Shown here: positions 1 to 48,174 of the stretch, one piece after another
Layout: every line of letters begins with the position of its first letter
How positions within the stretch are numbered: the stretch's first letter is position 1
Assembly (NCBI GenBank): GCA_024693365.1
Contig: JAILLF010000031.1
Coordinates: forward strand, 113,917-177,916
Source of the DNA: Acetatifactor sp.
GTDB lineage: Bacteria; Bacillota; Clostridia; Lachnospirales; Lachnospiraceae
Reading direction: 5' to 3'
DNA length: 64,000 nt
Program-made: the position numbers and the translations under genes
Notes under the pieces: model-generated
Databases searched by the model: none
What the model was told of the DNA's origin: nothing
Seen by the model: the letters and a program-made list of their open reading frames with translations, nothing else

Positions 1-2
1 AG

Positions 3-71
3 CTTGATGCAGCTGGATATCAGAAGGTTCTTGCTGAGTTCCAGAAGCAGTATGACGCATGGAAGAAGTAA
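3..71 (+). CDS. C-terminal end of an extracellular solute-binding protein (partial)
   Basis: Frame 3 from the window edge reads LDAAGYQKVLAEFQKQYDAWKK*, like the C-termini of sugar/peptide ABC substrate-binding lipoproteins; followed by a terminator. Confidence 0.5.
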   Translation, partial: LDAAGYQKVLAEFQKQYDAWKK

Positions 72-110
72 TTTCGGCAACGTGCTGAGATTGACATTCT
101 GACGTTACGG

Positions 111-142
111 ACCGGCGCGGAATCCTCCGCGCCGGTTTTTTT
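111..142 (+). terminator. Rho-independent terminator
   Basis: accggcgcgg-aatcct-ccgcgccggttttttt: GC-rich perfect stem plus T tract. Confidence 0.9.
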
Positions 143-153
143 AGGAGGGACGT

Positions 154-324
154 ATGCCGACGGTAATTGTTTTGCTCGGCCTGGCATGCATCGTTGTTTT
201 GATTTTGCGGAGCATGAGAAAGGCAAAGAAGGAAGGAAAATCCCTGCAGTGTTGCATGGATTGCAGCAAATGCAACGGCCCGTGCCAACTTGGGGATTTA
301 GAAAAATCAAATAAGAAGGAATGA
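154..324 (+). CDS. Small membrane protein, FeoB-associated Cys-rich type
   Basis: RBS ggaggga; MPTVIVLLGLACIVVLILRSMRKAKKEGKSLQCCMDCSKCNGPCQLGDLEKSNKKE*: one TM helix followed by a CC-x2-C-x2-C-x3-C cluster. Confidence 0.6.
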   Translation: MPTVIVLLGLACIVVLILRSMRKAKKEGKSLQCCMDCSKCNGPCQLGDLEKSNKKE

Positions 325-326
325 AA

Positions 327-356
327 ACGTGTCAGGAGAACCGTCCCCGTGACACG
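327..356 (+). repeat. Dispersed GTGTC/GACAC palindromic repeat (terminator-like copy)
   Basis: acgtgtcaggagaaccgtccccgtgacacgttttttg; related to copies at 1421-1687 and 47619-47684. Confidence 0.75.
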
Positions 357-426
357 TTTTTTGTTGCATATTTTGGGGACGGGTTCATATATTGTGGAGA
401 AGGCTGGACAAGGGGAGGGCGTGAGG

Positions 427-586
427 ATGCGGGAACTGGTCCGGATATTTCCGAAGGAGGAGCAAGGATTTTGGGGCAGGGTGTTGACGAAGGACCTGAC
501 GGAGCTAAGGCTTCGGGCGATGAAACCGGCCATGGTGAACAGAGGCGGAAGGGAATGGTACTTGGATGAAGGGCAGGGAGGAAGAA
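427..586 (+). pseudogene. spoIIIAA: Probable spoIIIAA N-terminal fragment
   Basis: MRELVRIFPKEEQGFWGRVLTKDLTELRLRAMKPAMVNRGGREWYLDEGQG resembles the SpoIIIAA N-terminus (ExRLRxxKP...GxExxL); the frame then runs directly into spoIIIAH sequence, with no ATPase domain. Confidence 0.5.
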
Positions 587-589
587 GAA

Positions 590-1398
590 TTGAAAAACGT
601 TTTCAAAAAAAACCAGCTGATGATCACGGCTCTCGCGATCATGATAGCCATTGCAGGGTATTTGCAATTTGCGGAGAATACCATAAAAGAGGAGCCGGGA
701 GAAACCTTGAAGGCCGTGGATTCCGGTAAGGTGATCACCGAGAATTACGTGGCGGGCGATCTGAAAAAGGATGCGCAAAAGCAGGAGGCTGCGGATACGA
801 TCTTGGAGCTTTCGGAAGAGGATTTGTTATTGCTTGGTTAGGCGACGGACGGGGGAGAGCTTTTGGAGTATCAAAGCTTAGACGCTTAGACGGTGATGAC
901 GGGGAACTTACGCTGAACTACTTGGAAGATGGCATGGACCTTGTCTATGAACGCCCGGGAAATGGCGGAGAAGAGGACGAACCCGCAACTGCCATGCCAA
1001 AGGAGGGTGAGATCCCGGGAGAGGCCGTTTTCACTTCTGCAGGCGCATGGATTGTTTCTGACGCCAAGCTTCTCAAGGAGCAAACCAGGGCAAAGAACAA
1101 GGCAACGCTTCTCGACGTGATCGGCAGCGAGCACCTGAGCGACGAGCAAAAGCAGCAGGCCGTCAATAGCATGGTGGAGATGACGCAGATCGCGGAAAAA
1201 GAGGCGGCAGCAGAGATCCTGCTGGAGGCCAAGGGATTTTCTGACGTGGTGGTCAGCATCGCTGCAGGCGGCGTAGACGTGGTGGTTAATGCGGCAACTC
1301 TTACCGACGCCCAGCGCGCGCAGATCGAAGACATCGTCCAGCGCAAGACGGGAGTCGCGCCGGAAAGCATCATCATCAGCACCGTCGTACGCGACTAA
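590..1398 (+). pseudogene. spoIIIAH: Stage III sporulation protein AH, disrupted
   Basis: Frame 2 (TTG 590): LKNVFKKNQLMITALAIMIAIAGYLQF...LSEEDLLLLG then TAG 839-841; frame 1: SDAKLLKEQTRAKNKATLLDVIGSEHLSDEQKQQAVNSM...AAAEILLEAKGFSDVVVSI...AQIEDIVQRKTG. Tandem cttagacg x2 at 877-892; removing one copy rejoins the frames. Confidence 0.8.
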
Positions 1399-1420
1399 CC
1401 ACACCATCACCCCACCGGTT

Positions 1421-1687
1421 CACGGGGACGTGTCTATTGACACATTAATAAACCCGATAGACTCGGGGCTGAGGCTTGATAGTATTCCTCAGGCACGCTC
1501 GCGCTATACTTGCAGCGTATCGGTACTAAGGTGCCGCGAACAGATTCATCACAAGTGATGTCTCTGTTCGCATACGCCACCTAAGTACCGACGCTTGGCA
1601 AATATGCCTGAGGGATACTATTCAAGCCATCCCCTCGAGCATGTCGCAAGCCGGGGCTCTCAATGTGTCAATAGACACGTCCCCGTG
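1421..1687. mobile_element. Fold-back / MITE-like element with 26-bp perfect terminal inverted repeats
   Basis: 1421-1446 cacggggacgtgtctattgacacatt and 1662-1687 aatgtgtcaatagacacgtccccgtg are exact reverse complements; the interior is an imperfect hairpin with apex near 1553. Confidence 0.8.
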
Positions 1688-1736
1688 ACACAATTTGATT
1701 TAGCAGAAAAAAGTATACACGAGAGAAGATACGTGG

Positions 1737-1742
1737 TATAAT
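1737..1742 (+). promoter_or_regulatory. Putative -10 box upstream of deoB
   Basis: TATAAT about 40 nt upstream of the deoB ATG; the -35 (tataca) is weak. Confidence 0.4.
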
Positions 1743-1780
1743 ATCTGCGAATTTGTACGCAAACAGGATGAGGAGTACCC

Positions 1781-2941
1781 ATGAAGAGAGTATTTTTGAT
1801 TGTTTTGGATAGCTTTGGAATTGGAGAAGAGCCGGACGCAGCGGCTTTTGGGGACGTGGACGTCAACACCTTGCGAAGTGTTGCGGGCAGTCCCTTTTTC
1901 CGCGTGCCGAATTTACAAAAACTGGGTCTTTTTAACATAGACGGCGTGTCCGTGGGCGAAAAGAGCAAATCACCCCTGGCGGCCGTTGCGAGACTTCGCG
2001 AGAAGTCCATGGGAAAGGATACCACCATTGGACATTGGGAGATTGCCGGCGTGGTATCGCCCAAGCCGTTGCCAACTTATCCCAATGGATTTCCGCAGGA
2101 AGTGTTGGATGAGTTTACCAGACGGACCGGCAGGGGCGTTCTGTGCAACAAACCTTATTCCGGCACGGCCGTGATTCAGGAATATGGCAAGGAGCATCTG
2201 GAAACGGGAGCGCTTATTGTTTACACTTCCGCAGACAGTGTTTTCCAGATTGCTGCGCACGAGGAACTTGTGCCTCCGGAAAAGCTGTATGAGTATTGCC
2301 GCATTGCAAGGGAGATCCTGCAGGGAGAGCACGGCGTTGGACGCGTGATCGCCAGACCTTTTATCGGTCCCGTGGACGGCAAGTTTGTCAGGACGTCGCA
2401 CAGGCATGATTTTTCGTTGCTTCCCCCGAAGGCAACGATGCTGGATCATCTCAAGGCGGCAGGAAAGGAAGTACTGGCCGTTGGAAAGATCCAGGACATC
2501 TTTGTCGGACAGGGCATTACGGAATATGTTTACACCTCCGGCAACGAGGAAGGAATTGCAAAGACCATCGAGTGGATGGACCGGGATTTTGAAGGCCTTT
2601 GTTTTGTGAATTTAGTGGATTATGACATGTTGTACGGCCATCGCAGGGACGTGGACGGTTATGCGAAGGCCCTGACTTATTTTGACGAAAAACTCCCTGA
2701 GATTATGGGGAAGCTGCGTGAGGGAGACGTGCTGATGCTGACGGCAGATCACGGCTGCGATCCAGCATATCTGGCGACGACCGATCACACGAGGGAGTAC
2801 GTTCCGTTCCTTGCTTACGGACCGGGAATCCGCCCGGAAAATTATGGGACGAGGGAGACCTTTGCCGACGTTGCGGCGACGGTGCTGGATCTATTGGGAG
2901 TACCGGGCGAGACTGCCGGAAAGAGCATGTTCCATTTGTGA
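1781..2941 (+). CDS. deoB: Phosphopentomutase
   Basis: MKRVFLIVLDSFGIGEEPDA...TADHGCDPAYLATTDHTREYVPFLAYGPGI; full-length alkaline-phosphatase-superfamily mutase. Confidence 0.95.
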   Translation: MKRVFLIVLDSFGIGEEPDAAAFGDVDVNTLRSVAGSPFFRVPNLQKLGLFNIDGVSVGEKSKSPLAAVARLREKSMGKDTTIGHWEIAGVVSPKPLPTYPNGFPQEVLDEFTRRTGRGVLCNKPYSGTAVIQEYGKEHLETGALIVYTSADSVFQIAAHEELVPPEKLYEYCRIAREILQGEHGVGRVIARPFIGPVDGKFVRTSHRHDFSLLPPKATMLDHLKAAGKEVLAVGKIQDIFVGQGITEYVYTSGNEEGIAKTIEWMDRDFEGLCFVNLVDYDMLYGHRRDVDGYAKALTYFDEKLPEIMGKLREGDVLMLTADHGCDPAYLATTDHTREYVPFLAYGPGIRPENYGTRETFADVAATVLDLLGVPGETAGKSMFHL

Positions 2942-3001
2942 CGACGCTGCGGAATCTAAGGAACTTGCAAAATCTAACAAATGGAAATGAGGTAAAGGAA
3001 A

Positions 3002-4597
3002 GTGAATAAAGAAGTACAAGAAATCAACAGGCGGAGAACCTTCGCCATTATATCCCACCCCGATGCGGGAAAAACGACTCTGACGGAGAAGTTTTTGCTT
3101 TACGGCGGCGCCATTAACCTGGCGGGCAGCGTTAAGGGAAAGGCGACGGCAAGACATGCGGTCTCCGACTGGATGGAAATAGAAAAGGAGAGAGGTATTT
3201 CCGTAACCTCCTCCGTGTTACAGTTTGAATATGACGGTTATTGCATTAACATTTTGGACACGCCGGGACACCAGGATTTCTCAGAGGACACCTATCGTAC
3301 TTTAATGGCTGCGGATTCTGCAGTCATGGTCATCGACGCGTCCAAGGGCGTGGAGGCTCAGACCAGAAAGCTGTTCAAGGTCTGCGGCATGCGTGGCATT
3401 CCCATCTTTACGTTTATCAACAAGCTCGACAGGGATGCCAATGATACGTTTGACCTTTTGGATGACATTGAGAAGGAACTTGGAATTGCAACCTGTCCCG
3501 TGAACTGGCCGATTGGTTCCGGTAAGGAATTTAAGGGCGTATATGATCGCGAAAAACAATGCGTGATTTCTTATTCCGATACGGAAAAGGGTACCAAGGA
3601 AGGCGTTGCGACGGAGATTCCCATTCAGGATGAAGAGCATCTTCGCGGACTCATTGGCGATGCGGCCGCAGATAAGCTTCTCGGAGAGATTGAACTTCTC
3701 GACGGTGCCAGCGCAGAGTTTGACATAGAGGAAGTACGCGCTGGAAGATTGACCCCCGTGTGTTTTGGTTCCGCACTGACGAACTTTGGCGTGGAAATCT
3801 TTTTGAAGCATTTTCTTAACATGACGACGCCCCCGCTCCCAAGAATGGCAGACATAGGTCTGATCAAACCTACGGAGCATGAGTTCTCGGCCTTTGTCTT
3901 TAAGATTCAGGCAAACATGAATAAGGCACATCGCGACAGGATCGCGTTCATGCGCATTTGCTCCGGCAAGTTTGACGCCCAGATGGAGGTGCGTCACGTA
4001 CAGGGCAATAAGGTAATGCGTCTTTCCCAGCCGCAGCAGATCATGGCGGATGAGAGAAAGATTCTTTCTGAGGCCTATGCCGGTGACATCATCGGCGTGT
4101 TTGATCCCGGCGTTTTCTCCATCGGTGACACGATCTGCATGCCCAAGGACAAGCTAACGTATGAGGGGATTCCCACGTTCGCGCCCGAGCACTTTGCACG
4201 CGTCCGCCAGATCGACACCATGAAGAGAAAGCAATTTGTAAAAGGCATTGAGCAGATCGCCCAGGAGGGCGCCATCCAGATCTTTACGGAGATGACTGCC
4301 GGCATGGAGGAAGTCATTGTCGGCGTTGTGGGCGTGCTCCAATTTGACGTGCTGAAATATCGTCTGGAAAATGAATATAACGTGGAAATCCGTCTTGAGA
4401 ACCTTCCCTATGAGCACATCCGCTGGATCGAGAATAAGGAAGAGGTGAATCTGGAGAAATTGATCGGAACCTCCGACATGAAAAAGGTAAAGGACATGAA
4501 GGGGAATCCGCTTCTTCTCTTCGTCAATTCCTGGAGCATCGGCATGACGTTAGACCGCAACAAGGGTTTGGTTTTGACGGAATTTAGCAGAAACTAA
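3002..4597 (+). CDS. prfC: Peptide chain release factor 3
   Basis: GTG start; RRTFAIISHPDAGKTTLTEKFLLYGGAI, NILDTPGHQDFSEDTYRTL; translational GTPase. Confidence 0.95.
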   Translation: MNKEVQEINRRRTFAIISHPDAGKTTLTEKFLLYGGAINLAGSVKGKATARHAVSDWMEIEKERGISVTSSVLQFEYDGYCINILDTPGHQDFSEDTYRTLMAADSAVMVIDASKGVEAQTRKLFKVCGMRGIPIFTFINKLDRDANDTFDLLDDIEKELGIATCPVNWPIGSGKEFKGVYDREKQCVISYSDTEKGTKEGVATEIPIQDEEHLRGLIGDAAADKLLGEIELLDGASAEFDIEEVRAGRLTPVCFGSALTNFGVEIFLKHFLNMTTPPLPRMADIGLIKPTEHEFSAFVFKIQANMNKAHRDRIAFMRICSGKFDAQMEVRHVQGNKVMRLSQPQQIMADERKILSEAYAGDIIGVFDPGVFSIGDTICMPKDKLTYEGIPTFAPEHFARVRQIDTMKRKQFVKGIEQIAQEGAIQIFTEMTAGMEEVIVGVVGVLQFDVLKYRLENEYNVEIRLENLPYEHIRWIENKEEVNLEKLIGTSDMKKVKDMKGNPLLLFVNSWSIGMTLDRNKGLVLTEFSRN

Positions 4598-4614: not shown

Positions 4615-5862
4615 ATGAAGTTTAATGGTTATGAGAGGACTTGGAAATTGAGATTACGAAAGAGCGGCAAGTTGCTTTGGATCATAATGCTCGCGGCAAC
4701 GCTGACGTTTGGCGGATGCGCGTCGTTGTCAGACGCATTTCCAATCGGCAGGGAAGATAGCGAGTCTTACGAAGAAGGCAGCGGCAAAAAAGCGAAGGGA
4801 AAAAATCAAAAGGAATATGATGATCATTTCCTTCAAAAGGGCAGCAGATATGCCCGCAAAAGACTGAACAGCGCGCAAAAGCTTTGGTATGACGACATAG
4901 AGCATATCCTGGGCAGCATGGAGGTGGACGGAGAGCTTTCCGTGGAAGGCATAGAAGAAGGGCTGACGGAGAAGGATCTGGAACTTGTGTTTAATTGTGT
5001 TTGCATGGATCATCCGGAGCTCTTCTACGTGGATGGATACAGTTACGTGACGCACGTGGTTGGCGAGTCCGTTGTGGGATATGTTTTTTCGGGAAGTTAT
5101 GGTATTGACAAGGACGTGGCACTTCGCAGGAAAAAAGAGATCCGGCAGGCCGCAAATGCGTTCCTGGAAGGGCTTCCCGACGGCGGAAAGAATCTTGATG
5201 ACTATGAAAAGATCAAGTATGTTTATGAAAAACTGATTCTTGAGACAGAGTACTCCCTTGATGCGCAAGACAATCAGACCATCTATTCAGTTCTTGTGGG
5301 AAAAGAATCCGTGTGTCAGGGATACTCAAAGGCCCTGCAATATCTGTTAAACGAACTCGGAGTTGAATGCACGCTGGTTCAGGGCGTGGCACAGGGCCAG
5401 CCTCACGGATGGAATTTGGTGAAGGCAGACGGAGAATATTATTACGTCGACGTTACTTGGGGAGACAATTCCTACCATCCAAACGTTGGCTCCATGGCGG
5501 CACCGGAAATTTTGTACGATTATCTGTTGGTAACAACGGATGAAATCTCCGTGGGCCGGAAAATAGACGAGGTAGTTTCTCTGCCTGCCTGCACTGCAAC
5601 GGCTGACAATTATTTTGTCCGGGAGGATGCCTACTTTGAATCATTGGATCAGGCAGGGCTCCAAATGCTCTTTACAATGGCAACCCCGGAGAATGCATGG
5701 CAGGTTTCCATTAAGTGCGCGGACAAGGAATGCTATGACGAAGTGAAGGATTTTCTTCTGAGAAAAAATAAGATTTTTGATTACTATCCGGTAGGCGGAA
5801 ATCAGATTTCATACTATCAAAACGAGGAATTGCATTGCCTGACATTTTGGGTGACAAATTGA
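4615..5862 (+). CDS. Transglutaminase-like domain lipoprotein
   Basis: Lipobox LTFGGCAS; core ESVCQGYSKALQYLLNELGVECTLVQG...HGWNLVKADGEYYYVDVTWGD contains the Cys-His-Asp triad. Confidence 0.8.
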   Translation: MKFNGYERTWKLRLRKSGKLLWIIMLAATLTFGGCASLSDAFPIGREDSESYEEGSGKKAKGKNQKEYDDHFLQKGSRYARKRLNSAQKLWYDDIEHILGSMEVDGELSVEGIEEGLTEKDLELVFNCVCMDHPELFYVDGYSYVTHVVGESVVGYVFSGSYGIDKDVALRRKKEIRQAANAFLEGLPDGGKNLDDYEKIKYVYEKLILETEYSLDAQDNQTIYSVLVGKESVCQGYSKALQYLLNELGVECTLVQGVAQGQPHGWNLVKADGEYYYVDVTWGDNSYHPNVGSMAAPEILYDYLLVTTDEISVGRKIDEVVSLPACTATADNYFVREDAYFESLDQAGLQMLFTMATPENAWQVSIKCADKECYDEVKDFLLRKNKIFDYYPVGGNQISYYQNEELHCLTFWVTN

Positions 5863-9136: not shown

Positions 9137-10996
9137 ATGTACCTGGAGAAAATAGAGAACGTCAATGACATAAAGAAGATCGATCCGGCGGATTATCCGG
9201 CGCTCGCGCAGGAGATCCGGGATTTTCTGATCCAAAAGATCAGCGTGACGGGCGGACATCTTGGCTCAAATCTTGGAGCCGTGGAGCTGACCATGGCGCT
9301 GCATCTTGCGTTGGACCTGCCGCAGGATAAGATTATCTGGGACGTGGGCCATCAGGCTTACACGCATAAGATTCTGTCAGGTCGCAAGGAAGGATTTGAC
9401 GCACTTAGACAATATCATGGAATGAGCGGGTTCCCAAAGCGGAAGGAGAGCTGCTGTGACTGCTTTGACACGGGACACAGTTCTACGTCCATTTCCGCAG
9501 GCCTGGGTCTTGTCATGGCGAGGGATCACCGGGGAGAGAAACAAACGATTGTTTCCGTGATCGGTGACGGATCCCTTACGGGAGGCATGGCGTATGAAGC
9601 CCTGAACAATGCCTCGAAACTGGAGACAAACTTTATCGTCATCCTGAATGACAACAATATGTCCATCTCTGAGAACGTGGGTGGAGTGAGCAAATATCTA
9701 AACAATATCCGAACCGCGGATGGGTATCTTGACCTAAAGGAAGGCATTTACAACGCATTGCTCGGAAGTGCCAAGGGTAATCAGGTGATCAAGGGCATCC
9801 GGAGATTGAAAAGCAGTTTAAAAACATTGGTGATTCCCGGAATGTTCTTTGAGGACATGGGCATCAAGTACCTTGGACCAGTGGACGGACATGACGTGCA
9901 GGCCATGGTGAACGTGATCCGCGCGGCGCAGAGGGTAGAAGGTCCCGTGCTCATTCACGCCATTACGAAAAAAGGAAAGGGATTCCTTCCTGCGGAGAAA
10001 CATCCGGCCAGATTTCACGGCACGGAGCCATTTGACGTTGAAACGGGGAAGCTGTTGAGGCAAAAGACCGAGCCTTGCTATACGGACGTTTTTTCCACCA
10101 TGATCTGTTCTCTTGCTGAGAGACATTCCAACCTGGTGGCCATTACGGCAGCCATGCCGGACGGAACGGGACTGAAGCGTTTTCGCTCAGAATTCCCGGA
10201 TCGCTTTTATGACGTGGGAATTGCGGAGCAACATGCGGTGACCTTTGCGGCAGGCCTTGCCGTAGGCGGCATGAAGCCCGTTGTCGCAGTGTATTCCTCC
10301 TTCCTGCAAAGGGCATATGATCAGATTCTGCACGACGTTTGCTTACAGAATCTGCCCGTTGTCTTTGCCATAGACCGTGCCGGCCTGGTAGGCAGTGACG
10401 GTGAGACGCATCAGGGCATCTTTGACCTGACTTATTTGACTGGCATTCCCAACATGCACGTGTGTGCTCCCAAGAATAAATGGGAACTCGCCGACATGAT
10501 GCAGTTTGCCGTAAATTTTGACGGCCCGATTGCGATCCGCTATCCGCGAGGTACGGCATACGCAGGGCTGGAAGAGCATCGCGCACCGATCGTGCTGGGC
10601 AAAGCAGAATGGATTTTCCGTGAGGACGGCGTTGCCATCTTTGCATTGGGCGGCATGGTGGAAGAAGCCGTGAAGGTGCGGGAATTGTTAAAGGAGCGGG
10701 GCGTTCGCGTGAGTCTGATCAATGCAAGGTTTGCAAAGCCCATAGACGAAGAAGCACTATTAGAGGCAGCGAAGAGTCATTCTCTGATCGTAACAATGGA
10801 GGAAAACGTTGCGTGCGGCGGTTTCGGAGAAAAAATTCTGGAGACGGCGAACACCCGTGGATTAAAGAATAAGATTTTACCCATTGCGTTGCCGGATGCT
10901 TACGTGGAGCATGGTAACGTAGAAATCTTGAAGCAAAAGCTTGGCGTAGATCCCAAGGGGATCTGTGATCGGATCTGGGAGGCATTGAACACATGA
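9137..10996 (+). CDS. dxs: 1-deoxy-D-xylulose-5-phosphate synthase
   Basis: GGHLGSNLGAVELTMALH...DVGHQAYTHKILSGRK...FDTGHSSTSISAGLG; TPP-dependent enzyme. Confidence 0.96.
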   Translation: MYLEKIENVNDIKKIDPADYPALAQEIRDFLIQKISVTGGHLGSNLGAVELTMALHLALDLPQDKIIWDVGHQAYTHKILSGRKEGFDALRQYHGMSGFPKRKESCCDCFDTGHSSTSISAGLGLVMARDHRGEKQTIVSVIGDGSLTGGMAYEALNNASKLETNFIVILNDNNMSISENVGGVSKYLNNIRTADGYLDLKEGIYNALLGSAKGNQVIKGIRRLKSSLKTLVIPGMFFEDMGIKYLGPVDGHDVQAMVNVIRAAQRVEGPVLIHAITKKGKGFLPAEKHPARFHGTEPFDVETGKLLRQKTEPCYTDVFSTMICSLAERHSNLVAITAAMPDGTGLKRFRSEFPDRFYDVGIAEQHAVTFAAGLAVGGMKPVVAVYSSFLQRAYDQILHDVCLQNLPVVFAIDRAGLVGSDGETHQGIFDLTYLTGIPNMHVCAPKNKWELADMMQFAVNFDGPIAIRYPRGTAYAGLEEHRAPIVLGKAEWIFREDGVAIFALGGMVEEAVKVRELLKERGVRVSLINARFAKPIDEEALLEAAKSHSLIVTMEENVACGGFGEKILETANTRGLKNKILPIALPDAYVEHGNVEILKQKLGVDPKGICDRIWEALNT

Positions 10997-11874
10997 AGGA
11001 GCGACTTGACGTAATCCTGGTGGAACAAGGTTATGCATCCTCAAGGGAAAAGGCGAAGGCCATTATCATGTCGGGCAACGTTTACGTCAATGGACAAAAG
11101 GAAGATAAGGCAGGCACGACCTTTGATCTTACAAAATGTAAGCTGGAGGTGCGGGGGAATACCCTAAAATACGTAAGCCGCGGAGGCTTAAAGCTTGAGA
11201 AAGCCATGCAAACCTGGAAATTTCCTCTGGAGGGAAAGATCTGCATGGACGTGGGTGCATCCACGGGAGGCTTTACCGACTGCATGTTGCAAAATGGTGC
11301 AAGCCGCGTTTATTCCGTGGACGTGGGCCATGGACAGCTGGATTGGAAGCTTCGCAACGACGAACGGGTCGTCTGCATGGAACAGACAAACTTCCGGTAC
11401 CTAAAGCCTGAGAACGTGCCGGAAAGACTTGATTTTGTCAGCGTGGACGTAAGCTTTATCTCACTGACGAAGATCCTGATTCCCGCGCGTAATCTGTTGA
11501 AGGCCGGGGGAGAGATGGTTTGCCTGATCAAGCCGCAGTTTGAGGCGGGACGCGAGAAGGTTGGAAAGAATGGCGTTGTCCGTGAACTTTCCACGCATCG
11601 CGAGGTTATCGAAAAGGTGATTGACTTTGCGAACCTGACGGGCTTTTCCGTAATGGGCTTGGAGTATTCGCCCATCAAGGGACCGGAAGGAAACATAGAA
11701 TATTTGGTTTATCTGAAAAAAGAGGCGGAGCCGGAAGAAAGCGTCTCTTCGCTCACGGAGCGGGAGGCGGAGGAGCTTCTTGCAACGGTGATCTCAGAAA
11801 AAAAGGGGCTTTCCGCATCTGAACAATGGAAGCAGATCATTGCCGGGATCGTGGAGAATTCGCATGCGCTATAG
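10993..11874 (+). CDS. tlyA: TlyA family RNA methyltransferase / hemolysin A
   Basis: S4 domain RLDVILVEQGYASSREKAKAIIMSGNVYVNGQ, then FtsJ-like MDVGASTGGFTDCML; ATGA overlap with dxs. Confidence 0.93.
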   Translation: MKERLDVILVEQGYASSREKAKAIIMSGNVYVNGQKEDKAGTTFDLTKCKLEVRGNTLKYVSRGGLKLEKAMQTWKFPLEGKICMDVGASTGGFTDCMLQNGASRVYSVDVGHGQLDWKLRNDERVVCMEQTNFRYLKPENVPERLDFVSVDVSFISLTKILIPARNLLKAGGEMVCLIKPQFEAGREKVGKNGVVRELSTHREVIEKVIDFANLTGFSVMGLEYSPIKGPEGNIEYLVYLKKEAEPEESVSSLTEREAEELLATVISEKKGLSASEQWKQIIAGIVENSHAL

Positions 11875-11913
11875 AAAATGACTGACGTGGGGCCCTGCGA
11901 AAAGGAGTGAACC

Positions 11914-12768
11914 ATGGGAAAACGATTTTTGATCTATTCAAATAAATTTAAGGATCCGCAACTGCGGGCAACCTACCGGATCAAGGACTATTTGGAGTCT
12001 AAGGGACAGGAGGTCAGCCTTCTGATCGTGGACAAGGACTGGAAAAGCGGGGAATGCCTGGAATCCTCTATTCCGGAAAACGTTGACCTGATCCTTGTGC
12101 TTGGCGGAGACGGAACCGTTTTACAGGCAGCCAGGGAAACCATTCACGTTCACGTGCCTCTGATCGGCGTGAACCTGGGAACGCTGGGATTTATGACGCA
12201 GATCGAAATGGCAAGCTTTGAGCCTGCGCTGGATCGTCTGATCGAGGGAGATTTCCGGAAGGAGAGCCGAATGCTGCTCCATGGGAAAGCGATGCTTCAT
12301 GACGGTGAAATCAGGGAAGGCTTGGCATTAAATGACGTCGTGATCTCCAGAAGCGGTCCCCTGCGGGTGATTCTGCTTCGCATTTACGTCAATGGTTCTT
12401 TCTTGCATGAATACCAGGCGGACGGCATGATCGTGACGACGCCTACGGGTTCCACGGGGTATAATTTGTCTGCGGGCGGTCCGTTGGTAGAGCCGGGAGC
12501 AAAGCTATTGATGCTAACGCCCATTTGTCCGCATTCGCTGAATCAAAGAAGCATTATTCTTTCTTCAGAAGATGAGATCGAGATTGAAATCCCGATGGGA
12601 AGGGAAGGAAAGGAACAAACGGTTATGGCTACCCTGGACGGTGCCAATTCCTTTTTTATGACGACGGGAGACCGCATCACCATCCGTAAAAGCGCGGAGA
12701 GTGCGGAATTCATTCAATTGAGCAAGGTAAGCTTTCTGGACGCGTTGCATCAGAAGATGAAGGATTGA
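11914..12768 (+). CDS. nadK: NAD(+) kinase
   Basis: LILVLGGDGTVLQAAR...GVNLGTLGFMTQIE...TPTGSTGYNLSAGGPLV. Confidence 0.95.
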   Translation: MGKRFLIYSNKFKDPQLRATYRIKDYLESKGQEVSLLIVDKDWKSGECLESSIPENVDLILVLGGDGTVLQAARETIHVHVPLIGVNLGTLGFMTQIEMASFEPALDRLIEGDFRKESRMLLHGKAMLHDGEIREGLALNDVVISRSGPLRVILLRIYVNGSFLHEYQADGMIVTTPTGSTGYNLSAGGPLVEPGAKLLMLTPICPHSLNQRSIILSSEDEIEIEIPMGREGKEQTVMATLDGANSFFMTTGDRITIRKSAESAEFIQLSKVSFLDALHQKMKD

Positions 12769-15039: not shown

Positions 15040-15061
15040 TTGCATGGATGGGAGGTTAAGG

Positions 15062-16372
15062 ATGTTTGGAAAGGGCAACGTGAAGCATGTGAAAACCAAA
15101 AAGACGAAGAAATGGAGAATGACTTTTAGGGGTATTTTGACATTCGCGGGGCTGGCATTTGCCTGCATCATGTTTTGGAACGTTACTGCGCGCATCCCTT
15201 CAACCCTTTACTTTCGCGCAGATCAAATCCAAAGGATTGATCTGGGGGTTCCGGCAACGGGAGAGGTGAGGGCAGCTTTTTTTGGATGGAATGAAAGTGA
15301 GGATTCGGAGGATATCGTGGCATTGGATCTTTCAAGACCCGTTACGATGCGTCCGGCGGGGCAAGACAGGTATGACATGGAGGTAAGACTTTTTGGATTT
15401 ATTCCATTAAAGAAAGTCGACCTTCGCGTCATAGGCGATGAGGAAGTGATTCCCATGGGAATCCCGATTGGCGTGTACTTGCAGGGAAAGGGCGTGCTTG
15501 TTGTGGGAACGGCAGAATTTATTACGGAAAATGACGAAAAGGCGGAACCGGCGAAAGACCTTGTGAAAGCGGGAGATTACCTAATGGCGATTGACGGCGT
15601 GGCATTGAAGGGGAAGGACGATCTTATCAAACGGATTGAAGAATCTAATGGAAAAACATTGACTGTCACCGTTGAGAGAGAAGGAAACAAACGGGAAGTG
15701 GAGATCACGCCCGTCCGAAACCAGGGGCATAAATATAAGGCAGGAATCTGGGTGAGGGATAACCTGCAAGGCGTCGGAACGTTGACTTACGTTGATGCGG
15801 ACGGGAAATTCGGGGCGTTAGGGCACGGCATAGCGGACGTGGATACTGGCACGGTCATGCAGGTTAAAGGAGGAACACTCTATCAGACAAAGATTGTAAA
15901 GCTTCGCAGAGGAAAGCACGGCGATCCCGGTGAAATAACGGGAAGGATTATTTATGACGAAGGATTTGCGCTGGGAGAGATCAGTGAAAACAGTGACCTG
16001 GGAGTATACGGCGTCTGTAATGACGCGGGGAAAAGTCTGGCAACGGCAGATGCCGTTCCCATAGGCTTAAAGCAAGAAATTGAACTTGGCCCCGCACAAG
16101 TTCTTTGTACCTTAGAGGATCACGTCGAAACCTTTGAGATTGAAATCACAAAGGTGCGCCTAAAGCAGGATGGCAAGGGACGCGGCATAGAATTAAGAGT
16201 GACGGATACGGAGCTTCTTCGTCGCACGGGCGGGATCATACAGGGAATGAGTGGATCGCCTATTTTACAAAACGGGAAGATCATCGGTGCCGTGACGCAC
16301 GTTCTGGTAAGTTCTCCGGAAAAGGGATACGGAATCTTTATAAAAAGCATGTTGGAAGAGGGAAGCTCATAA
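15062..16372 (+). CDS. spoIVB: SpoIVB-like S55 peptidase
   Basis: PDZ-like segment (VGTAEFITENDEKAEPAKDLVKAGDYLMAIDG); FGALGHGIADVDTG (catalytic His region) and GGIIQGMSGSPILQNGKIIGAVTHVLV (catalytic Ser region). Confidence 0.9.
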   Translation: MFGKGNVKHVKTKKTKKWRMTFRGILTFAGLAFACIMFWNVTARIPSTLYFRADQIQRIDLGVPATGEVRAAFFGWNESEDSEDIVALDLSRPVTMRPAGQDRYDMEVRLFGFIPLKKVDLRVIGDEEVIPMGIPIGVYLQGKGVLVVGTAEFITENDEKAEPAKDLVKAGDYLMAIDGVALKGKDDLIKRIEESNGKTLTVTVEREGNKREVEITPVRNQGHKYKAGIWVRDNLQGVGTLTYVDADGKFGALGHGIADVDTGTVMQVKGGTLYQTKIVKLRRGKHGDPGEITGRIIYDEGFALGEISENSDLGVYGVCNDAGKSLATADAVPIGLKQEIELGPAQVLCTLEDHVETFEIEITKVRLKQDGKGRGIELRVTDTELLRRTGGIIQGMSGSPILQNGKIIGAVTHVLVSSPEKGYGIFIKSMLEEGSS

Positions 16373-47609: not shown

Positions 47610-47618
47610 AAGAACAAA

Positions 47619-47684
47619 ACGTGTCAAGAGACACGTCCCCATGACACAAAAAAACGTGTCAGGAGACACGTCCCCGTGACACGT
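47619..47684 (+). repeat. Two tandem copies of the GTGTC/GACAC palindromic repeat
   Basis: acgtgtcaagagacacgtccccatgacac (47619-47647) and acgtgtcaggagacacgtccccgtgacacgt (47654-47684) followed by ttttt. Confidence 0.9.
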
Positions 47685-48174
47685 TTTTGTGGTAGAAGTG
47701 GAGTACGATGCGCTCAAGGCGGCGCTTTAGTACGATCTGGATCTCTTCCTTGGGATGGATGGGTTTTACGAGATAGGTTTCGATGCCGGCCTTTTTGGCA
47801 CCCCATACGTCCGTGAAGAGCTGATCGCCGACAAAGAGCGTGGTCTTTGGAGTGGAGCCGAGCTTTTGCATGGCGCGGAGGTAACCGGCCTGGCCTGGCT
47901 TCCCGGCTTTGTAGATATAGGTACTGCCAACGGCGTCGCTGAAGGATTTTACGCGGGGCTCCTTATTGTTGGAGAGAAGGAGCGTTCGAAAACCCAGGGA
48001 ATGAAGGGTGGCAAACAAGGCCTTGGCTCTTTCGTCCGCCGGCGCGCCGTGCGGTACCAGCGTATTGTCAACGTCGTAAATAATGGCCCGCTTGCCGTCC
48101 GCATAGTGGGCAGAATAGTCGATGGAATAAGCCGAATCCACTTCGTGATCCGGATAAAAACGTTCCAAAAACAT
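47659..48174 (-). CDS. YqeG family HAD IIIA-type phosphatase
   Basis: AIIYDVDNTLVPHGAPAD...LLLSNNKEPRVKSFSDAVGSTYIYKAGKPGQAGYLRAM...FVGDQLFTDVWGAKKAGIETYLVKPIHPKEE. C-terminal KNVSRGRVS and the stop codon come from the repeat. Confidence 0.9.
   Translation of the reverse strand: MFLERFYPDHEVDSAYSIDYSAHYADGKRAIIYDVDNTLVPHGAPADERAKALFATLHSLGFRTLLLSNNKEPRVKSFSDAVGSTYIYKAGKPGQAGYLRAMQKLGSTPKTTLFVGDQLFTDVWGAKKAGIETYLVKPIHPKEEIQIVLKRRLERIVLHFYHKNVSRGRVS

Follow-up and report, generated by a model that had tools for sequence, protein, structure and literature searches.

Our data point toward a lineage that has recently ceased to form endospores: the spoIIIA operon is destroyed and spoIVA is broken, and from the comparison of genomes we put the probability of this whole reading at about 0.88. 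Spore formation has very probably stopped in this species, with the genes still whole in its closest relatives; a spore assay for the species or its sisters was not found. SpoIIIAA to SpoIIIAH form the mother-cell side of a channel that supports the engulfed forespore in Bacillus subtilis and clostridia, and the spore coat rests on a base layer of SpoIVA; without SpoIIIA and SpoIVA, mature spores are not expected. The window (the whole stretch of DNA analysed, 64,000 nucleotides) belongs to a draft genome, G000, of 63 contigs with 94.5% completeness and 3.2% estimated contamination. Among the 138 genomes searched in the genus, two close species stood out, G110 and G078, with identities of 90% and 89% across the region, and the scan of named genomes returned relatives only, with no second strain of the same species. 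These named relatives place G000 in the Lachnospiraceae.

The spoIIIAH remnant and the deleted spoIIIA operon

The following features, in window coordinates, describe the locus.

427..569, + strand: 5' remnant of spoIIIAA, ~48 codons, frame 1 (collinear with G110; tblastn)
569/570, no strand: deletion junction (base-level comparison with the sisters; left flank matches to 569, right flank from 570)
590..838, + strand: N-terminal piece of spoIIIAH, signal-anchor helix and linker (PF12685, E 1.6e-8; alignment with G110, G078, G117 and RGIG6651)
839..841, + strand: nonsense codon TAG (Gln codon in the sisters)
877..892, + strand: perfect 8-bp tandem duplication, CTTAGACG x2 (shifts the frame; single copy in relatives)
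893..1398, + strand: C-terminal, ring-forming domain of spoIIIAH, frame 1 (PF12685, E 5.6e-44)

The preliminary description had read positions 590 to 1398 as a spoIIIAH pseudogene carrying a nonsense codon and a frameshift, and its coordinates, frames and both lesions proved correct to the base; it was incomplete in that it missed a 4,050-bp operon deletion and a broken spoIVA. Indeed, frame 2 encodes the SpoIIIAH N terminus up to the TAG, and frame 1, open for 222 codons, encodes the C terminus downstream of the duplication (CTTAGACGCTTAGACG), up to 1398. Both pieces exceed the cut-off of the Pfam SpoIIIAH profile (30.6), the first with 35.1 bits over profile positions 1-55 and the second with 150.8 bits over positions 77-191, but they do not lie in a single uninterrupted frame. 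A comparison with NCBIfam found neither SpoIIIAA nor SpoIIIAH. Alignment with the SpoIIIAH of relatives, proposed earlier as a check, revealed that G110 and G078 have neither lesion: their frame is uninterrupted (266 codons in G110), the codon at the position of the TAG is CAG (Gln), and the 8 bp are present in one copy. G117 and RGIG6651, which are more distantly related, likewise lack the duplication, for which slippage is a plausible origin. The start codon is TTG at 590 versus GTG in the sisters, and an ATG at 566, beside the deletion junction, offers another entry into the N-terminal open frame. Programmed frameshifting or stop readthrough was ruled out, since neither signal is present in the sisters and the operon is gone.

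Upstream of this remnant, 4,050 bp of G110 are missing, comprising the remainder of spoIIIAA and the entire spoIIIAB, AC, AD, AE, AF and AG genes. Window positions 1-581 match positions 5023-5603 of the G110 locus L081 at 90.6%, ending there within an intact spoIIIAA, and positions 570-3200 match 9642-12276 of the same locus. The spoIIIAA remnant (tblastn E 1.5e-4 against SpoIIIAA of G006; MWELVRIFPKEEQGFWGRVLTNDLTELRLRAMKPAMESRGGREWYVDD in the sister protein) is joined directly to the spoIIIAH leader, and its frame continues out of register into spoIIIAH sequence, with a stop near 729. In G110, G078 and G117, the full set of eight spoIIIA genes could be detected; SpoIIIAE, present in 54 of 61 genomes of the genus, was not found anywhere in G000. 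The operon of G110 and G078 lies at the same locus, with the same downstream neighbours (deoB and prfC) and ~90% DNA identity. Compared with it, the ends are preserved here, whereas seven genes are wholly or mostly deleted and the last gene is broken twice; hence, spoIIIAH no longer closes a spoIIIAA-AH operon, with 48 spoIIIAA codons as the only operon sequence upstream and AB to AG absent.

As for the cause of the deletion, BLAST hinted at a 12-bp overlap, but base-level comparison revealed no exact microhomology at 569/570 with either sister, and recombination between exact repeats was rejected. Both flanks of the junction carry similar G-rich sequence (GCGGGGAGG and GGGCAGGGAGG). Inverted repeats flank the locus at 324-360 and 1420-1688, but they were likewise discarded as a cause because the sisters have them too and neither lies at the junction. 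The latter interval, between spoIIIAH and deoB, is an element of ~270 bp with nested inverted repeats and 37-bp terminal inverted repeats (TCACGGGGACGTGTCTATTGACACATT); it is also found in G110, and short related units lie at 324-360 and 47616-47688 of the window.

spoIVA and the remaining sporulation genes

Further sporulation genes were examined family by family. SpoIVA, encoded on contig 41 (G000:C41:131600-133000), has an open frame of ~317-319 codons versus ~500-502 in both sisters, and this frame is cut off from a C-terminal remnant by a nonsense codon together with the loss of ~190 bp. The P-loop region has a Pro-to-Leu exchange at an otherwise invariant position. Only 7 of 192 otherwise invariant residues are changed, and part of the excess change in spoIVA may therefore stem from recombination. 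Since spoIVA, a second essential sporulation gene, is also broken, the loss concerns the sporulation pathway and not one gene alone. Open frames are kept for the Spo0A C-terminal domain, SpoVAC, SpoIVB (window 15044-16372), SpoIIGA and SigE.

One 4-kb deletion, which fused the first codons of spoIIIAA with the leader of spoIIIAH, destroyed the operon together with the nonsense codon and the frameshifting duplication in spoIIIAH. In our model, a feeding channel of the SpoIIIA-SpoIIQ type, with its SpoIIIAA ATPase and SpoIIIAG/AH rings, can then not be made. With the channel missing and SpoIVA, the spore-coat basement protein, truncated, development would be expected to stall after engulfment. 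Once selection was removed, sporulation-only genes would gather damage, and pleiotropic or early genes, such as those for the Spo0A DNA-binding domain and SigE, would still be kept.

Sporulation genes have been lost elsewhere in the genus as well. Genome G045, with an estimated completeness of 100%, has none of the seven families examined (AH, AE, SpoIVA, Spo0A_C, SpoVAC, SpoIVB and SpoIIGA) and, judged by gene content, is an independent, complete loss of sporulation.

Selection, age of the lesions and rival explanations

Changes were counted per branch in the trio G000, G110 and G078 by simple parsimony, a count that assumes no recombination within genes. Sporulation-only genes had a ratio of nonsynonymous to synonymous changes of 95:179 on the window's branch versus 53:257 in the sisters (p 1.6e-6). 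The corresponding values were 5:69 versus 7:63 for the housekeeping genes tyrS and ftsZ and 8:60 versus 7:29 for sigE and spo0A together. The remaining spoIIIAH behaves differently. Its C-terminal part (893-1398) acquired 28 synonymous but no nonsynonymous changes on the window's branch, with none of 130 otherwise invariant residues changed, and thereby differs from the other sporulation genes of the same branch (p 3.5e-6); the N-terminal part has a ratio of 3:6. What is left of spoIIIAH is thus without the relaxed constraint by which a pseudogene is recognized, whereas its lesions are, as in a pseudogene, absent from close relatives. Three lesions in the operon without missense drift indicate that spoIIIAH was inactivated recently or that recombination has lately replaced the segment; only with very young lesions or such a recent exchange would an unrelaxed spoIIIAH fit a loss of sporulation. 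In the same trio, spoIVB has a dS of 0.12 to G110 and 0.76 to G078, against ~0.2-0.6 to both for most of the other genes examined, and was likely exchanged by recombination.

The seemingly full constraint on spoIIIAH might also be taken, together with the draft state and estimated contamination of the assembly, as a sign that the lesions arose as errors of sequencing or assembly or stem from a mixed-strain bin. We consider this unlikely. Such errors would have to explain two lesions in spoIVA on top of three at the spoIIIA locus that are unrelated to one another, with none in the 58 other orthologous open reading frames of at least 100 amino acids compared with G110 in ~78 kb. All 58 were intact (at least 85% coverage of the partner in both directions; spoIIIA pieces left out of the set), which argues against sequencing error, and among the frames and genes examined, lesions were limited to sporulation genes. 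Furthermore, the duplication is the sole perfect 8-bp tandem duplication in the window, and the deletion joins nonrepeated sites inside a contig with 19 kb of collinearity to the sister, which rules out an assembly gap as its cause. It is very unlikely, too, that cells still produce the C-terminal domain of SpoIIIAH, for instance by initiation at an internal start of frame 1, and use it outside sporulation, as the long open frame and the lack of amino acid changes could suggest: the membrane anchor is absent, the partner proteins AA to AG are deleted, no ribosome-binding site is evident by eye at the internal starts, and a recent inactivation accounts for the constraint equally well. That the domain outlived its operon and is still selected for such a use has a slimmer chance yet; if true, it would explain why the C-terminal domain alone is free of amino acid drift on a branch where other sporulation genes drift. 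Sporulation by a route that needs neither SpoIIIA nor SpoIVA would be in line with the frames that are still open, but it is scarcely credible, as both are present in 26-28 of the 29 genomes of the genus that are at least 90% complete, and faster drift on the window's branch is also seen in several sporulation-only genes that have been kept. A recent loss of sporulation is the reading that we retain.

Spo0A in the genus and comparison with former spore-formers

Spo0A_C is present in G000 without a full receiver domain, as it generally is in the genus.

G000:C60:141608-141985 (L089; further loci L086-L091 and L107-L130): main Spo0A (locus reading)

In 24 of the 25 loci read, the main Spo0A has ~175-190 amino acids, with an internally deleted receiver domain and an intact DNA-binding domain. 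At the N terminus, ~40 residues can still be aligned to the beginning of a receiver; the ~85-95 residues that are lost include the phosphoacceptor Asp, and the main Spo0A of the genus no longer matches Response_reg. The gene adjoins glgA and does not lie downstream of spoIVB. Most members of the genus have a second protein of ~125 amino acids that consists of the Spo0A C-terminal domain alone (G000:C8:58344-58652; L092 in G110). Of 119 genera surveyed in the family, ~10 had the C-terminal form of Spo0A only and ~60 had a full-length Spo0A. The genus with the shortened Spo0A nevertheless keeps spoIIIA and spoIVA. A search of the literature on receiver-deleted Spo0A yielded no paper, and its occurrence across the genus may deserve more attention than the spoIIIAH finding.

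Among gut Firmicutes, Former-Spore-Formers have lost stage III-IV genes and have more often retained early genes, and the Lachnospiraceae are among the families with repeated losses of sporulation; the genomes of this group, called by gene presence and absence, are mostly without spo0A (Browne et al. 2021, PMC8340488). Former spore-formers with pseudogenes and lost operons are already known, and the present case is a clear but ordinary example. Its value lies in an early, datable stage, a sporulation loss in progress that is polarised by intact sisters at ~10% divergence. The lesions can be read base by base in a partly decayed pathway, and hence the order and speed of loss become measurable, which gene presence/absence surveys cannot achieve.

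In sum, several sporulation-specific genes are missing or broken in G000 (spoIIIAA-AG deleted; spoIIIAH and spoIVA broken), as in Former-Spore-Formers, and in both the loss falls on stages III-IV with stage 0 genes retained. Unlike in the published genomes of that group (PMC8340488), the loss here is early and still readable, and Spo0A_C is present.
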